From: Clostridia bacterium
GTDB lineage: Bacteria > Bacillota > Clostridia > UMGS1883
Assembly: GCA_017411435.1 (NCBI GenBank)
Contig: JAFQQD010000063.1
Coordinates: 1-55,466 of the forward strand
Reading direction: 5' to 3'
DNA: 55,466 nucleotides
Shown here: positions 51,419 through 55,111 of the stretch, one piece after another
Layout of the letters: each line of letters opens with the position of its first letter
How positions within the stretch are numbered: the stretch's first letter is position 1
Program-made: the position numbers and the translations under genes
Notes under the pieces: model-generated
Told to the model about the DNA's origin: nothing
What the model saw: only the letters and a program-made list of their open reading frames with translations
Databases searched by the model: none

Positions 51419-51546
51419 TATTGCAGAAAATTTATTCCCATTACTAAAAAATAATGTGTAATGGCTAAAATGTTAAAATCTCGCAACGGAATTAAATTGA
51501 CCTATACCATTTAGGGCAAAAGTTGGCTGTGTGACCGATTTTGACA

Positions 51547-51734
51547 TTTATAAATAAAGTTAAATATTTTATAAATCTATTTCAAACTTTTATAAAAAGT
51601 GCGGAAAGTTTTATAAAACATCGGTACAGTTTTATAAAAGGCTGTACCTTTTTTATAAAACCGATTATAAACAATCCGAATTATTTTATAAAATAACTTT
51701 ACATTTTTATAAAACATAACAATCCTTTTATAAA
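51547..51734. repeat. Array of ten TTTATAAA boxes on an exact 21-bp period
   Basis: TTTATAAA begins at 51547, 51568, 51589, 51610, 51631 and 51652, each exactly 21 bp after the last. A one-base variant (ATTATAAA) begins at 51664, and from there the 21-bp step goes on at 51685, 51706 and 51727. The 13-bp spacers differ from each other. Most boxes extend to TTTTATAAAA. Spacers four and five hold ggtacag and ctgtacc as an inverted pair around the fifth box. The array ends 20 bp before the -35 box of the transposase gene. It looks like a protein-binding array facing one side of the helix. Confidence 0.92.
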
Positions 51735-51753
51735 AACTGTTGAAAATGCAGAA

Positions 51754-51782
51754 TTGACAAGATTTAGCAAACTTTATATAAT
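51754..51782 (+). promoter_or_regulatory. Promoter of the transposase gene
   Basis: TTGACA (51754-51759), a 17-bp spacer and TATAAT (51777-51782), followed by AAAAGGGGGTG before the GTG at 51811. Confidence 0.8.
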
Positions 51783-51810
51783 ATAATCACCGAGAAAAGG
51801 GGGTGTAATT

Positions 51811-53466
51811 GTGAGGTTAAAGGATATTATGAAAGACAAGCCCAGAATAAGCAAAGAAGTCAAGGAATTAAGGGCAGAACTCAAAGATATTGAGAAAAGA
51901 ATAAAAGCTTTGTCCGAAACCGATAAAGAGTTTGTTTTGCGTGACTATGTGAAGAAAGAACCAAAGAAAAGACAGCCCACAGAGTGGGAACTATTTATGG
52001 AAAAGCACGGGATAAGGGCAGTATGTGACAAGTGTGGCTGTGTTCAAACCTATATGCACGCTTTGGAAAATGGCAAACCACGCCGACGCTGTGTGGATTG
52101 CGGTCATACATTCAACCCCTTTGTCGGCACTATTGCACAAGGGTCACACCTACCCCTTAATGTTCAAATAGCCCTTGTTTATTATACAATCAATAACTTT
52201 TCCCTTACAGATATTCAGCAAAACCTTAGAACCGATTACGGGATAGAACTGACACAAGGGTCAATTATCAGCAACAGACACAAAATCCTTGCCGCTATTG
52301 AACACCGCTTTGCTATGCCGAAATTGTCGGGAGTTATCAAGGTTGACGAGTGCTGTTTCAGGGAATGTCAAAAAGGTGCAAAAACCCTTATAAATACTGT
52401 ACCTACGGCAGTTGCGGAAAGAATAGCAAGAACAAAGGAAAAGAAAGTGCCTTCACAGTTAGGGACTTTTGGTAACGAGTTTGTCTGTGTAGTAACAGCG
52501 ATTGATAATAAAGGTCATATTGCCGCCGTTGTAACAGGCTTGTCAAGGATTAGTGCATTGGATTTTGAGAGTTATTTCGGGGATTATCTTGGGGATATTA
52601 GCTTTTTGTGTAGTGACGGCTTTTCAGCATACCACAAATATTGTGAAGAACACGCAATCCCTCACTATATAAAGCCTTCCACTATGGATAAAGAAATCCG
52701 AAAAGAGGAACGGGAATGGGAAGAAACTCACAATGGCGATAAAATAAGCAAAGAGGATATAAAGAAAAGCAAGTATGAAAATCAGGAACTTGACCGCATA
52801 GAAAATTACGGCAGACTTACACAAGCAGAGTTTGAAGAACTGAAAAGCAGAAAACGACTAACTCTTGACGATATAGACGCATTTCATAGGCAACTAAAAA
52901 GGCATATAAACAAGAATATGACGGGAGTTTCTGCGGTATATCTGCACCTATATATTTCCCTTTATGTTTTCAAGCATAACTGGAAGATAGACCACAAAAC
53001 CCCTTTAACTTCTTATGCCGATGCGGAAATGCTTTATGCTGAACTTATCGGGGCAAATGGCAGATTTATTCAATCCGCTGATTGGAAAAACAGAGATATA
53101 CTTGCTATGAGGAGAACACCCACACAGCATATTACAAGGCTAAATACATTTACAGAAAAGGCAAGAGAACTGTCAAAGGAACGGGGATTTGTATTTGACG
53201 GGAATAACAAACTGACACACTTTAACAAAAGGGTGTATTTCCGTACTGCAACCTTAACACAACTGAGAGCAATCTGCAAAGAGTATAAAGTCAAAGATTA
53301 CACAACCATAAAGAGCAAGGAAGAACTTGCAAAACGGATATGTGCATTACCAGAAGTCAATGAGATTTTTGTACGGCTCATAATGGCAGATGATGTTAAT
53401 GCACCGCATACAGACCGAATAGTGGAATTATTGAGGGAAGAAGGACAGAGCAACCAATTCCGTTGA
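51811..53466 (+). CDS. DDE transposase, IS1595/ISXO2-like, with zinc ribbon and SAP-like tail
   Basis: 551 residues from a GTG. Residues 1-50 are a charged coiled coil. A zinc ribbon follows (Cys72, Cys75, Cys94, Cys97 in CDKCGC and CVDCGH). The catalytic domain has Asp179 in VIKVDECCF and Asp269 in FLCSDGFSAYH; the third residue should be in the helix around HINKNMTGVSAVYLHLYIS. A Lys/Glu-rich insert lies at about 295-340. The tail at about 480-515 (LTQLRAICKEYKVKDYTTIK) looks like a SAP DNA-binding hairpin, which usually prefers AT-rich DNA. IS1595-type transposases are about 300 residues, so this one is large. The array before it (51547) may be its binding site. It may instead be a domesticated gene. 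Confidence 0.78.
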   Translation: MRLKDIMKDKPRISKEVKELRAELKDIEKRIKALSETDKEFVLRDYVKKEPKKRQPTEWELFMEKHGIRAVCDKCGCVQTYMHALENGKPRRRCVDCGHTFNPFVGTIAQGSHLPLNVQIALVYYTINNFSLTDIQQNLRTDYGIELTQGSIISNRHKILAAIEHRFAMPKLSGVIKVDECCFRECQKGAKTLINTVPTAVAERIARTKEKKVPSQLGTFGNEFVCVVTAIDNKGHIAAVVTGLSRISALDFESYFGDYLGDISFLCSDGFSAYHKYCEEHAIPHYIKPSTMDKEIRKEEREWEETHNGDKISKEDIKKSKYENQELDRIENYGRLTQAEFEELKSRKRLTLDDIDAFHRQLKRHINKNMTGVSAVYLHLYISLYVFKHNWKIDHKTPLTSYADAEMLYAELIGANGRFIQSADWKNRDILAMRRTPTQHITRLNTFTEKARELSKERGFVFDGNNKLTHFNKRVYFRTATLTQLRAICKEYKVKDYTTIKSKEELAKRICALPEVNEIFVRLIMADDVNAPHTDRIVELLREEGQSNQFR

Positions 53467-53635
53467 CAGCGGTATTCCCCGAAAATCCAAAAAGTGTCAT
53501 TTATAAGTGTTGGAAAAATGCCGAACTTTTTCCGAACCCCTATTTTTTATTAATTTTCAGCCTCAAAACAGGTGTTTTTTGAAAAATATACAAAGTTGAT
53601 TTTGTAAAAATAGTCATAAGTGTCGGTTTTTAAAC

Positions 53636-53743
53636 CCAATTACCGGAATTGTTGCTATTGCAGTATTTAGTGAAAATATCATCGGCAAAAATGCTGGAAT
53701 GGTGTGGTTTGTATTGACGGCAACGGATTTGGGTGTTAGATAG
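53636..53743 (+). pseudogene. 3' fragment of a membrane protein gene next to the transposase unit
   Basis: A frame without a start reads NPITGIVAIAVFSENIIGKN and AGMVWFVLTATDLGVR, with hydrophobic segments like a membrane protein end, to TAG 53741. Just before it, agtcataagtgtcggttttt partly mirrors gtgaccgattttgaca near 51525. I infer that the transposase unit ends near 53635 and left the tail of an older gene. Weakly supported. Confidence 0.3.
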
Positions 53744-53772
53744 TTAAATAATTACAAATTTCGTCAAATATA

Positions 53773-53996: not shown

Positions 53997-54010
53997 TTAT
54001 GGAGGAACAA

Positions 54011-55111
54011 ATGATGAAAAAGTTATGTGTAGTGGTAAGTTTAATAATCTGTTTAATTATGTCTGCTTGTAGTAGTACGGAAGAAAAAAGCAATTCTCAA
54101 GTACAAGAATTGACAAAATACAATATTACATTAAATATTGAATGTGTTGAAAATTTGCTTTTTAGTCGTTATGATGTTGATGTTTTAGTTGATAGTAAAG
54201 AAATTGCTACACTTGAACACGGAAGTCAAGATACATATAGTATAGAATTAACAGAGGGCGAACACACAATTTCATTTAAAAAAGAAGACGATAATAGTGT
54301 GGATGGGAATATTAAAATTAGTGTTTCGGAAGATAGTGTTTATAAATATAAAATTTCTTGTACGAGTGACCAAATAAAAATTGAAGAACTTCAATCGGAT
54401 AAAGGAACTGTTGAAACTGAAAAAGAAAAAGTGGAAACGGAGAGCAAGTCTAAAGATAATTCTAACACTTCAACAATTACAATGCCATATTCTTATACCT
54501 ATTATATAGGCCGGCAGTATAAAGAAGTTGAAAAGGAATTAAAGAAATTAGGCTTTAAAAAATATGATTATAATGAAGTTGAGATTGATGATGAAAATGA
54601 AGTTGCTGGCGAAATAAAAGAGATATATGTTGAGGATTGGATTTTTACAGACAAATTTAAGAAGGGAGATACCTATGATTCAGACTGTACTATAAAGGTA
54701 TATTACTATGTTAATCCTCCCAAACTTGAAACCTTAACTATTGAAAATTGTCCTGATTTGAATAGCCTTTTGTATGGTAATGAAGATTATTCCGTTTATT
54801 CAAATTTTGCAAGCAAATATAATGGTCAACTTATAGAGTTTGATGGTCGTATTGACTATGTAGTGAATTATAAAGATTATGACACTCGTTATGAGTTGCT
54901 TGTAAGTGCGGGGGATTATGACCCAGATTCTCAAACTGGACCTTCATTCAAGTTTGAGGATGTAAATAGTTTTGATTTGGGTTTAGATACTATGTATTTG
55001 GATGATGAAATTTGGGTTGGCAGAAATGTTCACATTATTGCAGAGGTGGAAGAATTTAATAGCAACACAGGACTGTTTTTCCTTGACCCAGTATCGGTAA
55101 TTGGAAGATAA
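54011..55111 (+). CDS. Lipoprotein with PASTA-like and DUF4839 domains
   Basis: 366 residues from ATG 54011 (GGAGG 6 nt upstream; ATG 53999 comes before the site). Lipoprotein signal KLCVVVSLIICLIMSAC gives a lipidated Cys at about residue 19. Residues 30-120 look like a beta-sandwich of the PEGA kind (LTEGEHTISFKKEDDNSVDG). A Glu/Lys/Ser linker follows. A PASTA-like unit is at about 160-235 (QYKEVEKELKKLGFKKYDYN). The C-terminal 120 residues match DUF4839 (TIENCPDLNSLLYG, KYNGQLIEFDGRID, TRYELLVSAGDYDPDSQTGP, VHIIAEVEEFNSNTGLFFLD). It is surface-anchored with unknown role, and appears to be controlled by the leader RNA. Its codon use is AT-rich, as in accessory DNA. Confidence 0.82.
   Translation: MMKKLCVVVSLIICLIMSACSSTEEKSNSQVQELTKYNITLNIECVENLLFSRYDVDVLVDSKEIATLEHGSQDTYSIELTEGEHTISFKKEDDNSVDGNIKISVSEDSVYKYKISCTSDQIKIEELQSDKGTVETEKEKVETESKSKDNSNTSTITMPYSYTYYIGRQYKEVEKELKKLGFKKYDYNEVEIDDENEVAGEIKEIYVEDWIFTDKFKKGDTYDSDCTIKVYYYVNPPKLETLTIENCPDLNSLLYGNEDYSVYSNFASKYNGQLIEFDGRIDYVVNYKDYDTRYELLVSAGDYDPDSQTGPSFKFEDVNSFDLGLDTMYLDDEIWVGRNVHIIAEVEEFNSNTGLFFLDPVSVIGR

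Follow-up and report, generated by a model that had tools for sequence, protein, structure and literature searches.

A helically phased palindrome array in the left end of an IS1595-related transposon of a Clostridia bacterium is probably a cis-acting subterminal site

The window (the whole stretch of DNA analyzed, 55,466 nucleotides) carries towards its end a transposase gene preceded by a regular array of short boxes and followed by a probable passenger gene. Several boundaries were set by alignment with relatives, above all with L032, whose transposase is 94% identical. The features are listed by position.

51429..51436, no strand: 8-bp left flank AATTTATT, where relatives lead one to expect the left copy of the target-site duplication
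51437..51448, + strand: left transposon tip CCCATTACTAAA, where the alignment with L032 breaks between two unrelated flanks
51471..51500, + strand: inner conserved end motif TGTTAAAATCTCGCAACGGAATTAAATTGA, common to the left ends of relatives and, in L032, to the right end
51547..51659, no strand: array block 1, six TTTATAAA boxes (51547, 51568, 51589, 51610, 51631, 51652) at 21-bp steps
51664..51734, no strand: array block 2, after a 12-bp step, with ATTATAAA at 51664 and TTTATAAA at 51685, 51706 and 51727
51754..51782, + strand: transposase promoter predicted from sequence, TTGACA at 51754-51759, 17-bp spacing, TATAAT at 51777-51782
51811..53466, + strand: 551-residue IS1595-related DDE transposase with a zinc ribbon (C72, C75, C94, C97) and a SAP/Rho_N-like tail, from NCBIfam, Pfam and alignments
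53467..53757, + strand: non-coding stretch 3' of the transposase gene, common to L032; the alignment stops at 53757 and the passenger region starts thereafter
53999..55111, + strand: probable passenger gene, DUF4839 lipoprotein-like (Pfam PF16127, E=4e-37), unlike the L032 passenger

The array at 51547-51734 consists of ten boxes of TTTATAAA, nine exact and one variant (ATTATAAA), separated by mutually unrelated spacers. All steps measure 21 bp except for a single step of 12 bp from 51652 to 51664. A preliminary description of this DNA had reported ten 8-bp boxes with this period and one break, and all were confirmed at their positions. It had also held that chance could not produce the arrangement, and this was borne out by 20,000 dinucleotide-preserving shuffles of 51437-51810: seven exact 21-bp pairs were observed, where no shuffle exceeded one, and nine exact boxes, where no shuffle exceeded four. 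A chance origin of the array was thereby ruled out. Across the 2.0-Mb host genome, the window array is the sole site with more than two in-step boxes; the remainder holds two two-box sites, of which one is exact and overlaps a malQ-like gene at its end, and the other has a mismatch.

The transposase, present as one copy in the host genome, scored 73 bits against the NCBIfam model NF033547 (cut-off 75) and thus did not reach the curated IS1595 model. Because of this score, and because the Pfam IS1595 domains were weak in 7-9 of 12 relatives, it is labeled IS1595-related. A structural model (mean pLDDT 65.8) gave no significant match in a comparison with PDB structures, the best weak matches being the ISCth4 transposase. 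The C-terminal tail had been put forward as a candidate binder of AT-rich DNA. It gave a weak Pfam Rho_N match (E=0.026, below cut-off), shared by 3 of 12 homologues, and two helices were predicted with low confidence at residues 482-491 and 503-511. The tail region is also present in homologues without the array and therefore fails to track it. In genome G024 (L029:2619-4260, minus strand) the transposase is split into two overlapping open reading frames in different frames, which may reflect a frameshift mutation, a sequencing error or a programmed shift.

Relatives with 26-94% identity were collected by a genome-collection scan and whole-genome searches. All those with at least 41% identity and readable upstream DNA had 3-20 boxes at 21- or 22-bp steps. 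The left array of L032 has the same ten boxes. At 47-52% identity (L034-L036, L039, L012, L025), 18-20 boxes were found, with the 12-bp break and its ATTATAAA box and with a middle stretch at 22 bp, whereas L043/L008 (41-43%) and L037, L038 and L040 (43-46%) had about three boxes plus scattered variants. The sequence of L033 starts inside its own array; that of L042 starts within the gene and was left out of the array count. No such array was present in four relatives at 26-34% identity (L014, L015, where the region was inspected in part, L026 and L041), and no other phased repeat was seen in the distant homologues L041, L014, L016 and L017. Since it is present at 41% identity or more and absent from the four relatives at or below 34%, the array is a property of one transposase clade. 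Pooling of eleven arrays gave the site TTTTATAAAA, of which the TTATAA part is strict, and the boxes are separated by steps of 21 bp (40 cases), 22 bp (20) and 12 bp (4). In the window, as in L032 and the relatives with long arrays, 19 bp separate the last box from TTGACA.

Comparison of copies across different flanks defined the element tips as CCTATAAC...GTTATAGG or, in the window type, CCCATTAC...GTAATGGG; the tips are inverted and begin with CCTATAAC or CCCATTAC. In L032 the mirrored tip is GTAATGGG, and the target duplication is TTTAGCCGT. Target duplications of 8 bp were found in L034, L035, L037, L039, L070, L150/L151 (one shared site) and L156, and of 8-9 bp in L032 and L040. The right end of the window element is absent from its contig, and a search of the host genome for the exact tip pattern TTTAGTAATGGG returned the left tip alone. 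An alternative left tip, CCTATACC near 51502, was overturned by the comparison with L032, which places the tip at 51437. The array had originally been described as standing in front of the transposase gene. Its position was correct, but its scope is different: the array lies inside the left end of the transposon, 110 bp from the tip. Whether it belonged to the element had been left to a comparison of ends, and across copies the array was found within the tips, at a near-constant offset.

The passenger region between transposase and right tip varies among copies. It encodes a radical-SAM protein in L032, a DUF4180 protein in L034, a small protein without a match in L035, a 1200-residue repeat protein in L037/L040 and probably the DUF4839 protein in the window. 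No Rfam family matched within the element. After the transposase gene, a conserved non-coding block is found at L035:7560-7880 and also in L033, L034, L036, L039, L012, L070 and L156. This block, also without an Rfam match, ends in a promoter-like TTGACT...TATAAT right before the variable passengers and may serve as an expression source for any cargo.

The first box lies 110-145 bp from the tip in the majority of array ends, regardless of the interior. In L039, L070, L078 and L156 the first scored box is further in, since the outer boxes are more changed or decayed. The right end of L032 carries a mirrored array of 11 boxes, 111 bp from the tip and behind the last passenger gene, and no open reading frame of at least 80 residues starts from it. 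Because every other readable right end is without an array, two arrays are unnecessary and one suffices. In L070, L150, L151 and L156 the transposase is absent, but both tips, the target duplication and the boxes are kept, those of L156 in partly decayed form. Three perfect boxes are present in L150 and L151 at a tip type that carries no array in L037/L040; L145 has an array at that tip type too. The passenger genes of L150/L151 read towards the array, and thus no gene promoter adjoins it. Array ends without the transposase also occur in L071, L074 and L145, in these cases without a confirmed duplication. The preliminary description had named arrays without the transposase as a refuting condition. 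Such arrays did occur, but mainly in these non-autonomous relatives and, rarely, in a resolvase context.

Two side observations were made on these derivatives. L150:5292-6538 and L151:6021-8000 occupy the same site (duplication TATTGCAT) and have the same ends but carry a GNAT acetyltransferase and an MFS transporter, respectively, as if cargo had been exchanged in place. At L070:6760-6890, L071:5350-5490 and L074:5890-6030, the same short inverted-repeat sequence (CTTCTCCTTGAGGAGAGGCTCCGCC...) replaces the transposase gene and has the look of a small repeat element in its own right.

Divergence was compared between box columns, spacers and the terminal repeat, taken as the element's first 70 bases, in 8 long-array copies. 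Pairwise differences amounted to 2.2% in the boxes, 11.3% in the spacers and 2.5% in the terminal repeat. Only 13 of 160 box columns were variable, compared with 33 expected and a minimum of 20 in 2,000 random draws. The boxes are conserved as tightly as the terminal repeat and diverge five times less than the spacers.

An unbiased search for a three-box pattern was performed in 391 genomes of the class, together with a search of the relatives of G337. The pattern matched in 15 of the 391 class genomes, compared with 3 for the reversed control; among 290 genomes outside the class there was no match. The matches comprised transposon ends, a few plain tandem repeats and arrays adjacent to resolvase genes. 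The same boxes and step adjoin serine resolvase genes in L072, L073, L076, L146 and L152, with tyrosine integrase genes nearby in all five; L072 and L073 represent one element in two genomes. No transposon tip was seen by eye at the expected distance in L072 and L076, and a profile search of the open reading frames in the integrase-type loci detected no transposase domains. In L146 the array lies at the 3' end of the resolvase gene, without an adjoining gene start. Resolvase-linked arrays are rare, as among 30 related resolvase loci just two had a clear array, both previously found, and one more had a weak one. A homologous small open reading frame (~75 residues, no Pfam match) lies between resolvase and array at L076:6570-6800 and L152:1136-1363. 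Near another resolvase, L170:2263-2312 has three boxes at 21-bp steps, one of them changed, which is too weak to count. A phage origin was rejected: the exact three-box pattern was absent from viral contigs, where a looser pattern gave isolated three-box or tandem cases alone.

Since the integrase elements share the boxes, the motif is not confined to this kind of transposase, and the recurrence of boxes and step in these loci makes a host protein a serious candidate ligand. A shared host ligand would be the simplest link between both contexts; alternatively, the transposon and resolvase arrays may have converged.

Our interpretation is based on the location of the array, its offset and phase, the selection on the boxes, the symmetry of L032 and the retention without transposase. 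On these grounds, the array is probably a cis-acting subterminal part of the transposon left end, a row of putative protein-binding sites. A dimeric protein, either the transposase itself or a host protein, would bind each near-10-bp palindrome TTTTATAAAA. Because the boxes lie two helical turns apart, the bound proteins would align on one face of the DNA. Aligned neighbors could bind cooperatively, and cooperativity would be the reason why the helical phase is kept. The bound row might bend, wrap or stiffen the end and so bring the transposase to the tip ~110 bp away or position it there. As the row ends 19 bp before the promoter, binding could also regulate the transposase gene.

The preliminary description had offered a transposition end, an autorepression operator and a nucleoid-protein filament site, and the transposition end emerged as the best supported of the three. 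A site needed in cis is preferred to a promoter operator because the offset is near-constant, the array is mirrored in L032 and transposase-less ends keep their boxes. Against a transposition end, the transposase-less copies may be recent losses, and the distance of the array to the transposase promoter is constant as well. If the array were an operator alone, the transposase or another regulator bound there would switch the transposase promoter, which is near consensus and, in the window as in L032 and the long-array relatives, keeps its 19-bp distance to the last box. However, the right array of L032 and the arrays of L150/L151 and L146 have no adjoining gene start, and arrays persist where the transposase gene is gone. 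As several arrays face no promoter, we consider it quite unlikely that this is the sole role; a side role at the transposase promoter may be retained. UP-element-like sites for the RNA polymerase alpha subunit, boosting transposase transcription, would account for A+T-rich boxes in helical phase with the promoter, the last of them having its center at about -58 relative to the predicted start. The number of boxes, as many as 20 and extending ~400 bp upstream, and the arrays without any promoter make this very improbable, and we know of no UP element of that size.

A host nucleoid protein could instead nucleate on the array and silence or insulate the mobile DNA, separately from the transposition reaction. 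The A+T-rich, flexible TATAA cores and the arrays beside serine resolvases (L072, L073, L076, L146, L152) would suit such a protein, and the restriction to the class could fit a class-specific host factor. But the host genome has hardly any further two-box sites, selection equal to that on the terminal repeat suggests a benefit to the element, and the clear resolvase cases are few. We regard this reading as unlikely; the recurrence in unrelated integrase elements keeps a host ligand in consideration, although a transposition end is better supported. That the row arose passively by tandem duplication and has no function is barely credible. The step is regular, and tandem arrays whose spacers are themselves repeated are found elsewhere (G316, G120), but here the spacers are unrelated and drift while the boxes stay fixed, and this divergence contradicts the explanation. 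It is conceivable, though less likely than not, that unrelated mobile elements (DDE transposons on the one hand, serine-resolvase/tyrosine-integrase elements on the other) independently adopted the TTTTATAAAA array at 21-22-bp steps as a handle for moving or being kept, read by one DNA-binding protein of gut Clostridia.

One end of a compact element keeps up to 20 helically phased sites whose distance from the tip is fixed, and they persist where the transposase is lost. Should these sites have a role in transposition, they would provide a simple, very regular system for studying the number, phase and spacing of sites that an end requires. That elements of an unrelated type carry the array too suggests that gut bacteria of an important group have a novel DNA-binding protein.

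The usual view of bacterial insertion sequences is that short tips are all they require. No published description of TTTATAAA arrays or of IS1595 subterminal repeats was found in the open-access literature, and we are not aware of another strict two-turn lattice with as many as 20 short palindromes or of an array in IS1595-related elements. Plasmid iterons and centromere-like arrays also have repeats about two helical turns apart, but iterons are direct repeats of greater length that adjoin a replication gene, whereas here 8-10-bp palindromes alternate with unrelated spacers. Tn7-like elements (TnsB sites) and phage Mu resemble the present element in having several transposase sites per end and asymmetric ends, and Mu has an internal site near its early promoter. 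Their sites are longer and in few copies. No Tn7-type TnsABC genes or Mu proteins are present here; the element consists of a single transposase gene and passengers. With the IS1595 family (NF033547; PF12760, PF12762) it shares the DDE core, the zinc ribbon, the 8-bp target duplication and passenger genes, the last of which are attributed to the family by Siguier et al. 2009, as cited in PMC12888890. It differs in scoring just below the model cut-off, in its 551-residue length with a long C-terminal part, in tips of the CCTATAAC/CCCATTAC type as opposed to the GGC type (GGCT) of the more typical relatives L016 and L017, and in the phased subterminal array. In the hAT transposons Hermes, Ac and Tol2, subterminal repeats aid asymmetric end recognition (PMC10368747). 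As here, short repeats lie inside the ends, with more of them at one end, and in hAT they are needed beyond the terminal repeat (PMC10368747); unlike here, the elements are eukaryotic, and their repeats form no strict helical lattice and are read by transposase BED domains (PMC10368747).
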